Source: an uncultured Phycisphaerales bacterium
GTDB taxonomy: Bacteria; Planctomycetota; Phycisphaerae; UBA1845; Fen-1342
DNA: 33,621 nucleotides
NCBI GenBank assembly: GCA_903914415.1
Contig: CAIWOY010000354.1
Coordinates: forward strand, 1 to 33,621
Reading direction: 5' to 3'
The notes beneath the pieces were generated by a model. It saw only the letters and a list, made by a program, of their open reading frames with translations. It was not told the DNA's origin and searched no databases. Shown piece after piece: positions 375-8,163 of the stretch. The stretch's first letter is position 1; every line of letters starts with the position of its first letter. Made by a program: the position numbers and the translations under genes.

Positions 375-403
375 AAAAACGGGGTACCCCGCCCGCGCGC
401 GGG
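375..403 (-). terminator. intrinsic terminator of the C39-RimK-GCS2 operon
   Basis: Read on the minus strand, 10 bases after the TAG stop of the GCS2 gene, comes a GC-rich self-complementary block (CCCGCGCGCGGG, 392-403). It is followed by CGGGGTACCCCG (380-391) and immediately by TTTTT (375-379). A GC hairpin followed by a T run is the classic Rho-independent form. It is the only hairpin in this window that I see with a clear T tract, and it ends a run of three overlapping or adjacent genes. Confidence 0.7.
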
Positions 404-412
404 CGCGGGCCG

Positions 413-1651
413 CTACGCGTGGAACATCCGCCCCTCGGCCAGGCACGCGCAGAGCGTGCGATACACCGCCGCGATCTGTTCGCGGTCCGTTTGCCCGCCC
501 AACGCCTTGAGAATGCGGCGTGCCAGGCAACCCTCGTGGAGGATGACCTTTAGCGGCGCGAATTCGCCCGACTCGCGTTCCGCCGGCGTCAGCACCGTTT
601 CGGCCAGGTGTTGCCATAGCGTGCCCGCCGTGCAGCGTTTCGGTTCCGTCAGTCCGAATTGGCGGAGGTAGTCCTCGTCGCCGACGACGGCCTGATCGCC
701 CTCCTCGATCGTCGCGAGAAAGACCTCCTCCAGCGGCGTCACGGGCCAGTTGCACTGCTCGACATACGAAGTCCAGCGCTCGGCCGCCAGCGCGCGCAGC
801 ACGGCCACAACCAACCTCAGGATCGCCAGGTCGGCCTGCGGGCACTCCTGGATGTCCAGCACGCGAATCTCGATCGTGTCCCGCTCGAACCGCGGAATCG
901 CCCCGCGCGCGTTCGCCCACTCCTCCTGCAAGATCCCATCCGGATCGTGCGGCGCCAAATCGCGGTAGATCTTCTGTAGAATCCGCTGCTGATAATCCCG
1001 CGGCGTAAACACCGGCTCCGGGATCACGTGCCCGGCGACCGACGGAATCCGCCGCGAATTTGAGCGATACACCTCCAGCCGCGTGTCCGCCACGCCCGTC
1101 GCGTGCCCGTCCACGATCGGCGAGCTGGCGGCCAGCGCCGGCAAGATCGGCAGGACGAGCCGAATCGCCGCGTGCAGCCGCCCAAACTCCTCGTCGCCGC
1201 AGAACGGCAGGTTCAGGTGCGACGACTGCACGTTCGCCCACCCGTGCCCCTTGCAGTTGAAGATCCGGTCGAACGCGGCGTACACCGGGCTACAGTCGTG
1301 CGGCCAGAGCTTCGTCTCGGTCAGCGGGTCCATCCACGGGTGCATGCCCGTGGGCATGAGCTGTCCGCCGCGCGGCGCGAGGATCTCGTTCATCCGCCGC
1401 ACGTCGCGCTGGAAGTAATCGGCCAGCCCGTCGAAGGAAGCCGCGGGCCCGGTGCTCTTCAGCTCGACGACGTGCAGGACCAGCTCGTTCGACCAGGTGA
1501 GTTCCCCTGCATCCACGTCCGCCGTGTACTCCCCCGCGGCGGCGCGCAGGAGCTCGTCCGCCGCCGGCAGCACCGCGAGCCGTTCGCGGTCCACCAGCAT
1601 GTACTCCAGCTCGACGCCGACGCGTTCGAAGAGGTGAAACGCACTACTCAT
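413..1651 (-). CDS. GCS2-type glutamate-cysteine ligase-like carboxylate-amine ligase
   Basis: This 412-residue protein belongs to the GCS2 (YbdK-like) branch of the glutamine-synthetase fold. Such ligases use ATP to join a carboxylate, often the gamma-carboxyl of glutamate, to an amine. Visible family signatures are GVELEYMLVD near the N-terminus (E14 and E16, metal/ATP site), SSHLNLPF, TRLEVYRSNSRRIPS, and the diagnostic TIEIRVLDIQECP block in the C-terminal half. No signal peptide is seen, so it is cytoplasmic. The ATG overlaps the stop of the upstream RimK-like gene by 4 bp (ATGA), implying translational coupling. It is the last gene of a three-gene operon that starts with a C39-like peptidase. 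The family is recognised with confidence. The substrate is unknown, and the company of a second amidoligase argues against ordinary glutathione synthesis. Confidence 0.88.
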   Translation of the reverse strand: MSSAFHLFERVGVELEYMLVDRERLAVLPAADELLRAAAGEYTADVDAGELTWSNELVLHVVELKSTGPAASFDGLADYFQRDVRRMNEILAPRGGQLMPTGMHPWMDPLTETKLWPHDCSPVYAAFDRIFNCKGHGWANVQSSHLNLPFCGDEEFGRLHAAIRLVLPILPALAASSPIVDGHATGVADTRLEVYRSNSRRIPSVAGHVIPEPVFTPRDYQQRILQKIYRDLAPHDPDGILQEEWANARGAIPRFERDTIEIRVLDIQECPQADLAILRLVVAVLRALAAERWTSYVEQCNWPVTPLEEVFLATIEEGDQAVVGDEDYLRQFGLTEPKRCTAGTLWQHLAETVLTPAERESGEFAPLKVILHEGCLARRILKALGGQTDREQIAAVYRTLCACLAEGRMFHA

Positions 1652-3123
1652 GGGGTTCCCGGTGCGGCGCCATTTTTCTTCTTCTGAATGCGTGCCAGAA
1701 ACACGCGCATGATGCGGTCGTACAGGTCGTCGCCGAGCAGCAGGTCGTCGTAGCCCGCGTCGACGTTCGGGTTATCATTGATTTCCATCAAATACGCCTT
1801 CTTCCCGAACTGCTTCACGTCGACGCCGTAGAACCCGTCGCCGATCAGCCGCGCCGCCCGCACGCCGGTGCTCAGCACTTGGCGCGGTACGAGATCGAGC
1901 GGCACCGGCTCGACGTTCCCCCACTGCTCGCGGTGCCCGACCATGCGCACGACCTGCCAGTGCCCGTCCGCCATGTAATACCGGCACGCGAACAGCGGCT
2001 CGTTGTCGAGGACGCAGATGCGCCAGTCGTACGGCGTGGGTACGTACTCCTGCGCGATGACGAGGTCGGATTTCTCCAGCAGCCGCTCGACCGCCTGGTC
2101 GAGATGATCCTGCTCGTCCGTGCGGAAGACGCCCTGCGAAAACGAGCTGTCCGGCTCCTTCAGAATGCACGGCAAGCCGATCTCCGTGTGGATGCGGTCC
2201 TTGTTGTCGCGGTGCACGATCATCGTCCGCGGCGTCGGGATGTCGTGCCGCGCCATCAGCTCCGCCACGTACACCTTGTTGCTGCACTTCGCGATCGACT
2301 CCGGATCGTCGATGACCACGAGGCCCTCGGCGGCCGCCCGCCGGGCAAACCGGTATGTATGGTGGTTGACCGACGTCGTCTCGCGGATGAACAGGGCGTC
2401 GAACTCCGCCAGCCGCCCGAAATCCTCGCGCTTGATCAGCTCGGCCCCCAGCCGCAGCCGCTTGGCCGCTTGCGCGAACCGTCCCAGCGCGCGTCGGTTC
2501 GACGGCGGCCGCTCCGCCATCGGATCAAACAGGATCGCCAGGTCGTACTGCGTCGTCGCGCGGCGCAGCCGCGGCAGCCGGCTCTGCGCGAAGAACCGCG
2601 ACGCGGAATCCACCACAAAATCCTGGTGCGACTCCGGAATCTCGTTCGCCGCAATCGGCCCCACGCTGTCGACCTTCCACACTCCGTCGTCGCAGATGAA
2701 CTCCGCCCGCAGCAGCGGCGCCTGGAACAGCCGAAACAGCCGCGAGCTCAACTCCTCGTAGCGCTTCGCCAGGTTCCGCCCGAAGTAGATGCTCAGCGTG
2801 AACTTCTTCGTCTTCACCGGCCGCAGGTTCCGCTCCATCACGTCTTCGAGGTCCTCGGCGACGATGCGGACGATCGAGACCGTCTTCATGTCCTGGATCG
2901 TGGTGATGCTCGGGAACGCCTTGTGCCCCCGCGCCGTCGCCAGCAGCGACACGTAGTACCCCGTGCTCTGGTAGCGATACGACCGGCACAGGTTGAACAC
3001 CTTCAGGTTCCGCAGCTCGCTGTACTGCGGGTCCGTCAGGTAATCCCGCGCCGCGATGATCGGCACGTCCGGGATCTTCAGCGGCCACGTCTTCACATTG
3101 TCCACGACGATCAGGTTGGACAC
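1648..3123 (-). CDS. RimK-like ATP-grasp amidoligase with N-terminal RLAN domain
   Basis: The 491-residue protein has two parts. Residues about 1-165 look like the RLAN (RimK-like ATP-grasp N-terminal) domain, with CRSYRYQSTGYYVSLLA and IYFGRNLAKRYEELS. Residues about 270-480 are an ATP-grasp ligase: K283 in SNKVYVAELM, ILKEPDSSFSQGVF (K322 and a Ser/Gly-rich loop), IAQEYVPTPYDWRI (E359), GVDVKQ (D435) and the metal-binding MEINDNPN (E447, N449). ATP-grasp enzymes of this type form amide bonds through an acyl-phosphate, typically adding glutamate-like amino acids to a peptide or protein. No signal peptide is seen. The GTG start lies 1 nt after the C39 peptidase stop, and the stop overlaps the GCS2 start by 4 bp. 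The family call is firm. The acceptor and the amino acid added are not known. Confidence 0.9.
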   Translation of the reverse strand: MSNLIVVDNVKTWPLKIPDVPIIAARDYLTDPQYSELRNLKVFNLCRSYRYQSTGYYVSLLATARGHKAFPSITTIQDMKTVSIVRIVAEDLEDVMERNLRPVKTKKFTLSIYFGRNLAKRYEELSSRLFRLFQAPLLRAEFICDDGVWKVDSVGPIAANEIPESHQDFVVDSASRFFAQSRLPRLRRATTQYDLAILFDPMAERPPSNRRALGRFAQAAKRLRLGAELIKREDFGRLAEFDALFIRETTSVNHHTYRFARRAAAEGLVVIDDPESIAKCSNKVYVAELMARHDIPTPRTMIVHRDNKDRIHTEIGLPCILKEPDSSFSQGVFRTDEQDHLDQAVERLLEKSDLVIAQEYVPTPYDWRICVLDNEPLFACRYYMADGHWQVVRMVGHREQWGNVEPVPLDLVPRQVLSTGVRAARLIGDGFYGVDVKQFGKKAYLMEINDNPNVDAGYDDLLLGDDLYDRIMRVFLARIQKKKNGAAPGTP

Positions 3124-3124
3124 G

Positions 3125-4024
3125 TTATTGTCCTTTGTCCGGCCGCAACGCCAGCGGCGCCCGCCCAGGTTCCGAACCGCGCCCGTCAGGAAGCGGCGCC
3201 CGCGGCGGCTCCAGTATCAGCAGGTTCGCGTCGTACGTCACGATCCCCAGCAGGATTGCCGCCACCACCCGCTCGATCCCCACCAGGTAGATGTACGTCG
3301 CCGACAGCGGGTTCGGTTGCAGCGGGTCCGCCACCAACACCTGCCGCGTCTCTTTGTCATACCCGCACAGCACCACGAAATGCCCTTGCGGCTGCCCGCG
3401 AATATCGTCCGCCACGCCCTGCGGCCCGAACTCGCGGCTCGTCCGATGCAGGTACGTCGCGCTGCAGCCCGTCAGGATCGGCCGCCCGCTCGTCAGGTAC
3501 CTCCGGATCAGAGCCGTCGTCAGGTCCTCCAGCCGCACCACCCCGCCCAGCGCCAGAAACTCCAGATATCCCTGCGTGAACGTGGCCAGCCGCGCGTCGC
3601 GCTTGTCCTCGCACCGCGCTTGCTCGCTCAGCTTCGCACTCAGGTCCACCGCCCCCGGTGGCGTGGGCGTCCCTGCCCGCTGATCAACCGCACCCGGTGG
3701 CGTGGGCGTCCCCGCCCGCTGATCAACCGCACCCGGTGGCGTGGGCGTCCCCGCCCGCGGCTCGACCTCCGCCTGCGCAAACCACGTCGGATCGAACACC
3801 TGCAAGTCATACGTGTAGATCGTGCCCCGATACCCCCGCCGCAGCGCGTGACAGCCCAGCAGCACCGCCAGCGTCCCGCCGTCCTGCAGCGTCGGCACCT
3901 CCGCGATGATCTGCTCCAGCCCGATCGCGTCGCCGTAGTACCGATACACGGCGTGCAGGCACGTTGGGCCGCACGAGGTGTCGCTGGGCTGGGGGAGGAT
4001 TTCGAGCGGAAGGTGGTTTATCAC
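3125..4024 (-). CDS. C39-like (papain-fold) cysteine peptidase with in-frame repeat insertion
   Basis: This 299-residue protein has no signal peptide. The N-terminus carries the double-glycine-peptidase-like Cys box DTSCGPTCLHAVYRYYG (C18). The C-terminal half has the His box QGHFVVLCGYD (H215) and an Asp in VADP (D233), giving a complete Cys-His-Asp set. Residues 90-128 are three 13-residue repeats (RAGTPTPPGAVDQ), encoded by a 39-bp DNA repeat inserted between the catalytic Cys and His halves. Near the C-terminus, PLPDGRGSEPGR resembles a dispersed repeat often translated in planctomycete genomes. The GTG start has no clear Shine-Dalgarno, but it places the Cys box where the family expects it. 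It is the first gene of the operon with the RimK-like and GCS2 ligases. It may cleave, cyclise or transfer the product of those ligases. A leader-peptidase role is less likely because there is no transporter nearby. Confidence 0.78.
   Translation of the reverse strand: MINHLPLEILPQPSDTSCGPTCLHAVYRYYGDAIGLEQIIAEVPTLQDGGTLAVLLGCHALRRGYRGTIYTYDLQVFDPTWFAQAEVEPRAGTPTPPGAVDQRAGTPTPPGAVDQRAGTPTPPGAVDLSAKLSEQARCEDKRDARLATFTQGYLEFLALGGVVRLEDLTTALIRRYLTSGRPILTGCSATYLHRTSREFGPQGVADDIRGQPQGHFVVLCGYDKETRQVLVADPLQPNPLSATYIYLVGIERVVAAILLGIVTYDANLLILEPPRAPLPDGRGSEPGRAPLALRPDKGQ
3654..3758. repeat. 39-bp tandem repeat, 2.7 copies, inside the C39 peptidase gene
   Basis: The block starting CCCGGTGGCGTGGGCGTCCC begins at 3654, 3693 and 3732, an exact 39-bp period. 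One difference is visible between copies 1 and 2 (CCCTGCCC versus CCCCGCCC), and the third copy is cut at GCCCGC. Because 39 is divisible by 3, the array adds 13 residues per unit without breaking the frame. Near-identity of the copies points to recent expansion, so copy number may vary between strains. Confidence 0.9.
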
Positions 4025-4090
4025 CGCGCACGTCTCGCGGACCGGCCGCCGGCGGAACAGCAGGCCGCGCGGCGCGCGTGATTCTCCTGC

Positions 4091-4124
4091 GGGCGGCGAA
4101 CCGCCCTGTTCCGGCGTCAGCCGG
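4091..4124 (-). promoter_or_regulatory. two tetraloop hairpins in the leader of the C39-RimK-GCS2 operon
   Basis: Two perfect small stem-loops sit between the candidate promoter (4141-4167) and the C39 start (4024). They are GGGCGG-CGAA-CCGCCC (4091-4106) and CCGGC-GTCA-GCCGG (4111-4124), written on the plus strand. Both would fall within the first 45 or so nucleotides of the transcript. A role in mRNA stability or attenuation is possible but not shown. There is no T tract. Confidence 0.4.
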
Positions 4125-4140
4125 CACAGACACGCCGCGC

Positions 4141-4167
4141 ATTATACCGTCCCGGCCCCTCGTCAAC
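4141..4167 (-). promoter_or_regulatory. candidate sigma70-type promoter of the C39-RimK-GCS2 operon
   Basis: On the minus strand, a perfect TATAAT (4141-4146) is preceded by TTGACG (4161-4166) with a 14-nt spacer, or GTTGAC with 15 nt. A perfect -10 box is rare in this GC-rich sequence, and it is followed by a GCGCGG start region. The spacer is shorter than the usual 16-18 nt, so either the promoter is weak or activator-dependent, or the -35 match is accidental. It lies about 110 nt upstream of the C39 GTG. Confidence 0.5.
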
Positions 4168-4299: not shown

Positions 4300-7200
4300 C
4301 TATGGACACGTCCGCCCAATCACCGCCACGAACGGATCGATATCCGCGAACGTCACCGTGCCGCTATTGTTGCAGTCCGCGTTCAGCCACGGGCAGCTCG
4401 GGTGATGCACGTTCCACGCCGACTCGCCGGCCAGTGCTTCCACGAACGGGTCGATGTCGGCGAACGTGATGCCGCCGTCACAGTTCGTGTCGCCCTTGCA
4501 ACCCGACTGCGGGCACAGATTCGGCTGGCAGCTCATCCATTCGCTGTGCCACACTCCGCCGGCGACGCAATTGGCCTGCGTAGTCTGGCTGCACGAGCCA
4601 TCCGGCATACAGCAGGCGCCGAGGGCCGGCGGCAGGCACACGTGCGTGATGGTCCCCTGGATCACGAAGTCCGTGCCCTGTACATCCATCGACACCCAGC
4701 GCGGGCAGAACGGCAGCCGGGTTATACGCGTGTACTGGCCCGGCGCCGTGATCGGCGGATCGACCGGCACGCGTACGACAAACTGGTCATCCCACGACAG
4801 CGGCGGGGCGTCCGGATTGCTCCAGGTCTCGGCCGCGTAGTTGACCGCCACCACCGGTGGATCGCCCGTGAATTGGGTATCAAAGTTGAGCGTGACCTCC
4901 TTTTCGCGATCGAGCGCGAACTCGTTCGGCCACCACTGGTTCCACCAGTTTAGCGGGTAGGAATACCATTGCTGGTGATAGCCTGTGCCGCCCTGGTCCG
5001 TGGGGACATCGCTCACCACCTGCAGCCAGTAATCCTGCGGTGCGCAAGGATTCGGGAAGCAGTCGGTGCCGGGCCCCTTCCAGGTTCCCGTGCAGGCGGC
5101 TTGGGTCGTGATGGAGCAGGCGCCGCCGATGCAGCAGGCGCCTTCCAGCGAGGTCATATTAATGGTGTAGTCTTCCGTCTCACCATACGAGATCGTGCCG
5201 CACGGCGTGGGCGTGTAGTAATAGAGAATCTGGATACGCATCCGCGCGGGGCCGGGCGGGGTGCCGACCGGCGGCGTGATGGTACCCGTGAACTGCCCAC
5301 TGGAGCCCGGTCCGGTCATGGTGACCAGTTCGTTCGGGTCGAACGTGCCGTTGCGGTTCCAGTCCACCCAGACGCCGCACTGGTCGGCGGACCACCACGG
5401 CGGGCCGTCCTTCACAGTGATTGCATAGCCGACGCCAGGCAACATGTTCGTCGACAGCGACGTGTAGTCTGCATATCCATTGGTCGAGTCGCCCGAGACA
5501 TTGTCGATCGTACCGACCGTCACGCGGCTGACGTACATAAAGCCCTGGTTCAACCTGCTCACGGCACAATATGGCTGTTCGCATGTTACCGAAGCGCAGG
5601 TCGAGCCGACGTGGAAAGTTCCGCCCCGCGCCGCGCATTGGGCCGCGGTCAACTCGACACAACTCCGCGGATAACCAACGCAGCAGGCGTATGCGGGCTG
5701 CGGACACTCATACGTCGCACACGTCGTACCCGCGTGCCACAGGCCGCCTCCCTGGGTGCACGGCGCCTCAGTCACGTCGGCGCACCAGCCATCGGGGAAA
5801 CAGCAGGCACCGGTGTCCGCCGTCTGACAGCACACGTTATCGTTCAGGATTCGGATCGAATCCACCCACCAGCCGGTTTGACCGCCGTAAAAAGTCGAGC
5901 CCAATCGCCAGCGGAACGCGACCGTGTTCCCCACCACGCCCGCGGGCAGGTTGACGACCGTCTCGATGAAGCCGCCCGAGCTACCGGACCAAGCCTGACG
6001 ACCGGAGAGTGGGTTGCTGAACCCGTCCGCCAGCGTGTACGTGTACCCGTTGGTCGCGAAGGTTCCCCCTGCGGTCAGGATGTCCGTGAAGGCCCCGCCG
6101 CTGATGGAGATTTCGAGCACGCCGCCCTCATAGCCCACGTAGTTGTCCCCACCGTAAACCAGGAACAGTTCGTATTTGTGCCAGAAGGCCAGTCGGGCGC
6201 CCGAACTCTGGATCGTCCAGGTGGGCGAGGTCAGCCGATTGTCGGAGGCCTCCGTCGGAAGCGCCGCAAACGCGGAGTTGGGGGTCGTCTGCGCGGCGGC
6301 CGCCGTTGTGGCCCAGAGGGCTACGGTACCTGTCGGGCGCGCGGCGACCCACCCGGCTGGCAGCGCGGGGGGCGTGACACCGTCAAAGTTCTCCGACAGG
6401 CGCAGGGCGCCGAGCGTGAAGGTATAGGTCCCGGGCGCGAACACGTTCGCACCATCCTGAAGCGCGAGGGTCGCGGTCAGCGTACCGCCACACGTTCCGC
6501 CCGCGGTGAAACTGAAGCTCCGGGAAGCCGTCGCGTTGGTGGCGAGGGCCCCATACGATTGCGGCCCGCTGGGGGCGATCACGCCACCGGTTGGCAGCAG
6601 CGTGGCCACCAGGTTGGTCATGGCGGGGCCGAAATTGTGCAGCGCGAAGCTCACCGTCACCGTCTCGGCGGGGTCGAGGACGAGATTCCCCGGCGTGCAG
6701 CCTTCGGCCACGAGCGTCGCCCCCGCGGCCTGCGCGCCGAAGAAGCGGAAGCGGCCGCCCATCGTTGCACCTGGCGTCGTCAACTGGTCGACCAGGACGG
6801 TGGTCGGTGCCCCAGTGTAGTCATGGCTGCTCGGAAACGTGGTCGGACCGAAGACCGTCGGCGGGACATAGAAATCGCCGGCGTCGGCTGGTCCATTACC
6901 CGTCTCGATTTCCTCGAGCCCGTCCGCCTCCATGCGTCGCAGCAGCTTGTGGCCGGTGTAGGAGTTGTCGTACAGGAAGTCCGTGCCGCCAACGTCCAGC
7001 GTGGCATCGACGTGCCAGATCGCGTAGCCCGTCGGGTAGGTTGCCGGGTCGTTGCCCGTGGAGCCCTTGCGGTACTGCGCCATGAAGTATTCATCGAAAA
7101 CCTGGCCGGGTACCGCCCCGGGCATGATCAGTACGCAGTCCTGCGATGTTCCCGATGGGTTCAGCGTGAGCGTCTGCGAGCCGGTGACGATCGTCGTGGG

Positions 7201-8163
7201 CGTCAGCCAGTCGACCAGGAACTTGGAGAAGCAGTTCCAGTCACCGACGTTGTCGTCCTGCATATCGAGGCCGCCCAGGCCGCCGCCCGGGCCAACATCG
7301 GGGTCGTAGTCATAGTAATCCGGCACACCCAGCGCGTGGCCGGTCTCGTGGATGTCCGTGTGGGGGTCAAAGTCGTCGCCCTGGTTGTCGGCGATCCAAG
7401 ACCAAACGTACGTGTTGATGCGCTTCCCGTCGATCCTGTAGCTCGAGTTGACCCACCAACTGGTCTGGTACGCCCACCACAGGGTGGCCCAGTCGCCAAT
7501 CGGACCGGTCCACTTGCAGTAAAGGGTGTCGATGGTTCCGTTTCCGTCATTGTCGTATTGGGTGAAATCGTGGCCCTGGGCGTTGAAATAGTCGAGGGCT
7601 TCCATGATCACCGCTTCGTTGGCGTACCACATGCCCATCGCTTCATAGTAAGACCGGTTGTGTTGAGCCCTGTACCAGCCCAAAACGTTGCCCTGAATGT
7701 GAAGCGTGTCATAGGACGCACGCTCGAAGTAGTTGCGAACGCTCTCGTACGGGTAGTTACCGACCCCGTCCTGAAAAAACTTGTCGTACACGTCCGCCTG
7801 CGTCTGGTTCGCGTAGTGCGGCCAGTCGGGGAAATCGACCAGCAGCACGAGCACCTTCGGCGAACCCGAGGTGGGCAATCCGCCCTGCCAGGCCGGCGGC
7901 GGCGTGCGCAGCGCGGGCAAACCCTCCGCCTGCCTCATCAACTGCTCAACCCGCCAGCGCGCGTGCTCCGCCAGGCCCGGAGCGGCCTTGTGGTTGCCGA
8001 TGGCGTACGCGTTCGCCAGCCGCTCGGCCCACGTGCCGTCGGCCTTGTACTGCGCGATCTGCTCCGCCGTCGGCGGCTCGTTCGCACGGACAGGGACGGC
8101 CAGAAACAAGAGCACGAATCCACAACACACGAAACTCTGCGACAGCTTGCGCGAACAGCTCAT
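4300..8163 (-). CDS. secreted M6-family (immune inhibitor A-like) metalloprotease with GEVED, ACC modules and dockerin-like tail
   Basis: This 1287-residue protein starts with a signal peptide (basic CSRKLSQ, then hydrophobic FVCCGFVLLFLAVPVRA). The zinc-protease motif is HETGHALGVPDYYD, with HExxH at residues 272-276 and a Gly-x-x-Asp continuation typical of M6 peptidases. Further on come a beta-rich region (about 470-780), then Cys-rich modules starting GACC or YACC at about 782, 821, 1006 and 1180. A GEVED-type domain lies at about 864-1003 (VDWNRNGTFDPNE ... YGETEDYTI). Residues about 1222-1287 are two dockerin-like calcium repeats, each with FADIDPFV. The ATG has a strong AAGGAG 7 nt upstream. 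The family and secretion are clear. The substrate is unknown, probably extracellular protein. The tail may serve anchoring or sorting, since no cohesin is seen here. Confidence 0.88.
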   Translation of the reverse strand: MSCSRKLSQSFVCCGFVLLFLAVPVRANEPPTAEQIAQYKADGTWAERLANAYAIGNHKAAPGLAEHARWRVEQLMRQAEGLPALRTPPPAWQGGLPTSGSPKVLVLLVDFPDWPHYANQTQADVYDKFFQDGVGNYPYESVRNYFERASYDTLHIQGNVLGWYRAQHNRSYYEAMGMWYANEAVIMEALDYFNAQGHDFTQYDNDGNGTIDTLYCKWTGPIGDWATLWWAYQTSWWVNSSYRIDGKRINTYVWSWIADNQGDDFDPHTDIHETGHALGVPDYYDYDPDVGPGGGLGGLDMQDDNVGDWNCFSKFLVDWLTPTTIVTGSQTLTLNPSGTSQDCVLIMPGAVPGQVFDEYFMAQYRKGSTGNDPATYPTGYAIWHVDATLDVGGTDFLYDNSYTGHKLLRRMEADGLEEIETGNGPADAGDFYVPPTVFGPTTFPSSHDYTGAPTTVLVDQLTTPGATMGGRFRFFGAQAAGATLVAEGCTPGNLVLDPAETVTVSFALHNFGPAMTNLVATLLPTGGVIAPSGPQSYGALATNATASRSFSFTAGGTCGGTLTATLALQDGANVFAPGTYTFTLGALRLSENFDGVTPPALPAGWVAARPTGTVALWATTAAAAQTTPNSAFAALPTEASDNRLTSPTWTIQSSGARLAFWHKYELFLVYGGDNYVGYEGGVLEISISGGAFTDILTAGGTFATNGYTYTLADGFSNPLSGRQAWSGSSGGFIETVVNLPAGVVGNTVAFRWRLGSTFYGGQTGWWVDSIRILNDNVCCQTADTGACCFPDGWCADVTEAPCTQGGGLWHAGTTCATYECPQPAYACCVGYPRSCVELTAAQCAARGGTFHVGSTCASVTCEQPYCAVSRLNQGFMYVSRVTVGTIDNVSGDSTNGYADYTSLSTNMLPGVGYAITVKDGPPWWSADQCGVWVDWNRNGTFDPNELVTMTGPGSSGQFTGTITPPVGTPPGPARMRIQILYYYTPTPCGTISYGETEDYTINMTSLEGACCIGGACSITTQAACTGTWKGPGTDCFPNPCAPQDYWLQVVSDVPTDQGGTGYHQQWYSYPLNWWNQWWPNEFALDREKEVTLNFDTQFTGDPPVVAVNYAAETWSNPDAPPLSWDDQFVVRVPVDPPITAPGQYTRITRLPFCPRWVSMDVQGTDFVIQGTITHVCLPPALGACCMPDGSCSQTTQANCVAGGVWHSEWMSCQPNLCPQSGCKGDTNCDGGITFADIDPFVEALAGESAWNVHHPSCPWLNADCNNSGTVTFADIDPFVAVIGRTCP

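Follow-up and report, generated by a model that had tools for sequence, protein, structure and literature searches.

An operon for a C39-like peptidase and two ligases

Contig CAIWOY010000354.1 of an uncultured Phycisphaerales bacterium (assembly GCA_903914415.1) carries a minus-strand operon of three genes which, from its list of open reading frames (ORFs), encode in order a C39-like cysteine peptidase, a ligase with an RLAN domain and a RimK-type ATP-grasp domain, and a GCS2-family ligase. The window refers here to the whole stretch of this contig that was analysed, 33,621 nucleotides (nt). The peptidase and RLAN genes are separated by a 1-nt gap and the RLAN and GCS2 genes overlap by 4 nt, exactly as a preliminary description of the sequence had stated. 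The contig ends 412 nt past the GCS2 stop codon and the window is therefore silent on whether the operon stops there. Protein lengths are given in amino acids (aa) and the support for each feature in brackets.

3125..4024, minus strand: C39-like cysteine peptidase gene, 299 aa (ORF, Pfam PF13529, alignment, AlphaFold)
1648..3123, minus strand: gene for an RLAN domain and a RimK/LysX/ArgX-type ATP-grasp ligase, 491 aa (ORF, Pfam, alignment, fold comparison)
within 1648..3123, minus strand: RLAN domain at about 2608-3051 and ATP-grasp domain at about 1759-2283 (Pfam)
413..1651, minus strand: GCS2-family carboxylate-amine ligase gene, 412 aa (ORF, Pfam, alignment)
3650..3770, minus strand: in-frame 39-bp tandem repeat in three copies, inside the peptidase gene (sequence, alignment, low model confidence)
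4141..4146, minus strand: lone TATAAT hexamer 5' of the operon, promoter role unsupported (sequence, promoter scan)
375..391, minus strand: short palindrome CGGGGTACCCCG followed by T5, terminator role unsupported (sequence, scan, folding)

All three proteins score above the curated Pfam cut-offs of the families to which the preliminary description had assigned them, and the catalytic residues that it considered intact, C18 of the peptidase, K322 of the RLAN protein and E14 of the GCS2 protein, are invariant in 34, 43 and 34 aligned relatives, respectively. The peptidase matches Peptidase_C39_2 (PF13529; E 1.9e-12, 48.4 bits against a cut-off of 24) and retains the Q/C/H/D active site of C39-like cysteine peptidases (PF13529/PF03412), with predicted catalytic residues Q12, C18, H215 and D233, of which the first three are invariant and D233 nearly so. 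It is a stand-alone protein with no ABC transporter fusion, which sets it apart from the C39 peptidases of bacteriocin export (PCAT). Its AlphaFold model (predicted local distance difference test, pLDDT, of 86) has a papain-like fold and fits C39 leader peptidases with Z scores of about 17. The primitive phytochelatin synthase Alr0975, a papain-like enzyme that acts on a gamma-glutamyl tripeptide, is structurally tied with the C39 domains (Z 16.6 over 162 residues, a longer alignment), whereas no sequence match of the peptidase to phytochelatin synthase (C83) was found and by sequence it is a C39_2 protein. Because of this tie, the model is compatible with cleavage as well as with acyl transfer on a gamma-glutamyl peptide.

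The 491-aa protein is an RLAN ATP-grasp ligase, with a match to RLAN (PF14401; E 1.4e-49, 168 bits against a cut-off of 25) followed by one to RimK (E 3.6e-11, 43.5 bits against a cut-off of 21). K322, R247 and R368 are all invariant in its 43 relatives. In structure comparisons the ATP-grasp half is nearest to ArgX, LysX and RimK (Z 27-28, other ligases at most 24); among the matches listed, coverage is confined to residues 190-486 and the RLAN half lies outside. The RimK residues that contact the glutamate chain, R64, R189 and N262 (PMC10092738), align with the invariant R247 and R368 and the nearly invariant N449. Two of these positions, R189 and N262, are common to ATP-grasp enzymes in general, and the correspondence is therefore better evidence that the active site is intact than of any particular substrate. 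The third protein matches GCS2 (PF04107; E 1.1e-27, 97.5 bits against a cut-off of 21) and belongs with the GCS2 carboxylate-amine ligases, retaining the residues shared with YbdK; E14, E16, E63, H104, Q142, H145, R164, R191, E261, R263 and D266 are invariant in its 34 relatives.

No NCBIfam model fits any of the three proteins, and the best scores, against the models for RimK, LysX, YbdK, cyanobacterial GshA and EgtA, all fall far below the cut-offs. The RLAN protein reaches 71.3 of the 143.4 bits set for rimK_fam and 27 of 331 for PRK10446, and the GCS2 protein reaches 53 of 176 for YbdK, 36 of 249 for GshA and 23 of 371 for EgtA. The family-level names GCS2 and RimK, like the automatic annotation of a Legionella copy (see below), would suit ordinary glutathione (gamma-glutamylcysteine) synthesis alongside ribosomal S6 glutamylation by unrelated neighbour enzymes, an alternative which the preliminary description had itself put forward. 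This fits poorly with the scores above. Furthermore, the 4.74 Mb source genome (97% complete), which contains one RLAN and one GCS2 protein by profile search, has no match to GSH-S_ATP, and the fusions and fixed gene order described below bind the two ligases together. We consider this explanation scarcely credible.

Conservation of the gene set and its partners

In an even draw of 246 Planctomycetota genomes, 65 have RLAN proteins, and 59 RLAN loci from these were taken for neighbourhood analysis. The complete set of C39, RLAN and GCS2 genes was found at 41 of these loci and RLAN with GCS2 at three more. Phyla outside Planctomycetota were sampled through a single scan of named genomes, biased towards close relatives of the query, and through plasmid records. 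The scan returned loci from Thermodesulfobacteriota, Fibrobacterota, Verrucomicrobiota, Myxococcota, Bdellovibrionota and Pseudomonadota, those from Verrucomicrobiota having RLAN and GCS2 without C39. Wherever all three genes are present, at 77 loci in total, they lie in the order C39, RLAN, GCS2 on a single strand, with median distances from stop codon to next domain start of 6 and 12 nt. The fixed order spans at least six phyla, and the RLAN and GCS2 pair seven. This conservation is far above chance, and the survey of other genomes that the preliminary description had proposed as a way to refute its reading has not done so.

The two ligases are fused into a single protein of approximately 1000 aa in five genomes and in a sixth where the gene is cut by a contig end (L071, L072, L074, L157, L158 and L155). 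The distance matrices of the three proteins are also correlated (r 0.75-0.82, Mantel p 0.001, 63 loci). Shared ancestry alone raises such correlations and the fusions and fixed order are thus the weightier evidence. The conserved order, the fusions and the correlated evolution together strongly support the view, already advanced in the preliminary description, that the three enzymes belong to a single system for peptide ligation and are not neighbours by chance.

A fourth gene often accompanies the set. A gene for an N-formylglutamate-amidohydrolase-like (FGase) protein lies directly 3' of GCS2 at 43 of the 79 loci whose sequence continues for 900 nt or more beyond GCS2 and, in the even Planctomycetota sample, at 28 of 41 loci, always on the same strand. 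The protein is a member of PF05013 (E 1e-20 to 1e-29, 73.7-102 bits against a cut-off of 28.9), with E85, H86 and H200 invariant in 36 relatives, and is not HutG itself (27 of 279 bits). The public annotation of Legionella adelaidensis lists the same run as RimK family, glutamate-cysteine ligase family and N-formylglutamate amidohydrolase. The operon was initially described as self-contained, a label which is wrong for the family given how common the fourth gene is and on which the truncated window is undecisive. The window lineage itself seems to lack FGase, as the source genome has no PF05013 match and the gene after GCS2 in the nearest named relative, a Phycisphaerales metagenome-assembled genome (MAG) with a 98% identical RLAN protein, is unrelated to FGase.

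Two loci illustrate the fourth gene in other settings. A 9-kb record titled Legionella adelaidensis plasmid 27 (L152, NZ_LR134436.1) has fur, bamE and dapF next to its RLAN, GCS2 and FGase genes, and on account of these neighbours looks like a chromosomal fragment. At L154 (3125-5232; G004:C192) GCS2 and FGase genes of the same subfamily form a pair with no adjoining RLAN or C39 gene, and GCS2 and FGase can therefore travel together.

Neighbour-gene clustering, made with overlap filtering of ORFs, and a small-ORF search revealed no other genes conserved around the operon beyond close kin. The clustering found no conserved transporter gene, and the only conserved small ORFs within 2.5 kb were FGase fragments and close-kin synteny, in line with the initial remark that the operon has neither a transporter nor a precursor gene. 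An apparent conserved small ORF in 39 loci, considered as a precursor of a ribosomally synthesised and post-translationally modified peptide (RiPP), proved to be the C-terminal end of the FGase gene. Maturation of a RiPP, with the C39 peptidase cutting the leader and the ligases modifying the ribosomal peptide, is very improbable on this evidence: C39 peptidases and ATP-grasp ligases are both known from RiPP clusters and the C39 model fits leader peptidases, but once the FGase fragments are removed there is no conserved small ORF near the operon to serve as a RiPP or graspetide precursor, and the peptidase stands alone with no conserved transporter. Anti-phage defence was also considered and set aside, with no PADLOC model matching any of the four proteins.

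RLAN loci that lack GCS2 mostly have a GNAT acetyltransferase in its place. The GNAT domain is fused to a DUF3335 C39-like peptidase at L031-L033, L081, L133 and Azospirillum L153, is fused to RLAN itself at L069, L082 and L137, and is encoded by a separate gene at L070, L138-L141 and the split-RLAN loci L076-L080. PMC10318531, citing Iyer et al. 2009, describes DUF3335 as often fused to GNAT. Profile comparison relates the DUF3335 peptidase to the C39 protein of the window (probability 95%, E 2e-8), whose own locus is not of the GNAT-DUF3335 type and has stand-alone C39_2 and GCS2 partners. GCS2 and GNAT are nearly exclusive (Fisher p 6e-14, for loci that are not independent), and in an RLAN tree, built by a quick method and with some long branches, partner type tracks clades (5 changes compared to 12.9 in shuffles). 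Since the two partners replace each other, this suggests that both acylate an amine, with a gamma-glutamyl or an acetyl group, respectively.

Two further arrangements were seen among the RLAN loci. In one planctomycete family (L075-L080) the RLAN and ATP-grasp domains are split between adjacent genes of approximately 245 and 300 aa, with a GNAT gene next in most cases. A gammaproteobacterial locus (L129, 4012-4734) has consecutive genes for GNAT, C39, RLAN, GCS2 and FGase and possibly holds both kinds of partner.

A possible glutathione-like peptide pathway

Our leading reading, which we hold tentatively, is that the operon encodes a small non-ribosomal pathway for a glutathione-like peptide, with both synthesis and recycling. 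In the first step, the GCS2 enzyme would use ATP to activate a carboxylate of glutamate, most likely the gamma, and attach it to the amino group of X, an amino acid or an amine. The RLAN ATP-grasp ligase would then activate a carboxylate of this intermediate and add an acidic residue, most likely glutamate, in the manner of LysX, ArgX and RimK, which link glutamate or aminoadipate through its amine to a glutamyl carboxylate. In the third step, the C39-like enzyme would cut or transpeptidate the product and, in many relatives, the FGase-like amidohydrolase may take off the added glutamate, leaving a product that can be recycled. FGase-type enzymes free glutamate from an N-acyl group, and removal of the RLAN-added residue would thus be a fitting role. 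In the sister systems a GNAT acetyltransferase would replace GCS2, the partners being alternative amine acylators.

Several results point towards such a pathway: the order kept at 77 of 77 loci, the fusions, the correlations of 0.75-0.82, the invariant catalytic residues, the ArgX/LysX/RimK fold, the FGase gene and the GNAT exchange, together with the RimK-residue match, a C39 model that fits both C39 peptidases and Alr0975, and the lack of a conserved precursor gene. Other considerations weigh against it. The amines used cannot be read from family-level similarity of the GCS2 and ATP-grasp proteins. FGase is absent from the source genome and C39 from some loci, and the recycling step is therefore not universal. 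GCS2 and GNAT may not be strict alternatives, given the GNAT gene near a GCS2-type set at L129. Finally, the acceptor could be a protein and not a small molecule.

In the last case a cellular protein would receive a glutamyl tag from the ligases and lose it again through the peptidase, with FGase where present. The ATP-grasp half resembles RimK and LysX, which work on protein C-termini, and the pairing of a RimK-like ATP-grasp ligase with a bond-undoing hydrolase in one operon recalls rimK-rimB (PMC12239564) and the rlo operon (PMC11957791). Unlike those systems, window-type operons have C39 and FGase hydrolases and no retropepsin, and they add a GCS2 ligase and an RLAN domain. GCS2 enzymes are known to act on small amines, no conserved target or carrier gene was found nearby by neighbour clustering and small-ORF search, and the GNAT/GCS2 exchange is more easily explained as capping of a small molecule. 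We therefore regard protein tagging as unlikely.

The LysW-dependent synthesis of lysine and arginine offers another comparison, as LysX and ArgX, which extend a glutamyl carboxylate with an acidic amino acid, are the solved structures nearest in fold to the ATP-grasp half (Z about 28). On the other hand, no LysW-like carrier gene was seen beside the operon, and GCS2 and C39 have no counterpart in the LysW system. By analogy with the LysW-dependent lysine and gamma-glutamylated putrescine pathways, GCS2 might gamma-glutamylate (or GNAT acetylate) a metabolite to protect its amine during processing, with the hydrolases deprotecting it afterwards. Acylating and deacylating enzymes in one operon, the interchange of GNAT and GCS2, and the kinship in fold to ligases of the LysW carrier system would suit such a scheme. 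However, the operon has no conserved oxidoreductase, kinase or aminotransferase to process a protected intermediate, which leaves amine protection quite unlikely.

The glutathione-like pathway that we favour has a parallel in glutathione synthesis itself, where a GCS2-fold enzyme is followed by an ATP-grasp ligase, as in plants and cyanobacteria, sometimes in one chain as in GshF. The resemblance is incomplete, as the window proteins fall under all NCBIfam cut-offs for glutathione enzymes and GshF fuses a GCS of a type other than GCS2. In 2009 Iyer et al. (Mol Biosyst 5:1636; Pfam PF14401 and PF11814) reportedly predicted, in an account relayed by the Pfam text, that RLAN neighbourhoods are peptide-synthesis systems that include papain-like peptidases and GCS2. 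The window operon is said to share with those neighbourhoods an RLAN and RimK-like ATP-grasp protein beside a papain/C39-like peptidase; it differs in having a stand-alone C39_2 peptidase, and GCS2 in place of GNAT, and its relatives add FGase. We found no experimental study of an RLAN-GCS2 system in the literature searched. As far as can be told, the fixed order over at least six phyla (seven for RLAN and GCS2), the RLAN-GCS2 fusions, the FGase-like fourth gene and the near-exclusivity of GCS2 and GNAT are new here.

Were our reading to hold, a glutathione-like metabolite (or tag) that has so far escaped discovery, served by enzymes of its own for synthesis and recycling, would be common to bacteria ranging from Planctomycetota to Legionella, and the fixed enzyme set and natural ligase fusion make the question directly testable by biochemistry. 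A broader and somewhat doubtful extension is that RLAN systems are a widespread class of pathways for short acyl-peptides with an exchangeable N-cap, gamma-glutamyl with GCS2 and acetyl with GNAT. These pathways would yield a new small molecule that serves as a cofactor, protectant or signal and is recycled by enzymes dedicated to it.

Flanking sequence and in-frame insertions

The promoter and terminator proposed in the preliminary description were not supported. A consensus scan found no promoter-like sites, and no -35 element accompanies the TATAAT (4141-4146). The palindrome with its T run (375-391) went unscored in a terminator scan, which gave no minus-strand site, and this stretch folds no better than its shuffles (z-score -0.07). 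On the 5' side of the operon, the same strand carries a gene (4300-8163) for a large protein that is predicted to be secreted and has a match to M6 metallopeptidase, a GEVED domain and C-terminal dockerin-like repeats; it is not conserved together with the operon.

The 39-bp repeats within the peptidase gene encode RAGTPTPPGAVDQ-type repeats, with the core motif at 3657, 3696 and 3735. The resulting loop is proline-rich, has low pLDDT and aligns with a gap in nearly all relatives, including the 98%-identical relative L090, which has no counterpart. An origin from a dispersed repeat was rejected, as the core sequence occurs nowhere else in the genome. The GCS2 gene of L090 (7467-8780) has an in-frame insertion of its own, GAPGVNREGEAPAEPRG..., where the window has GGQ. 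The window strain and L090 thus each have small in-frame insertions in otherwise conserved operon enzymes.

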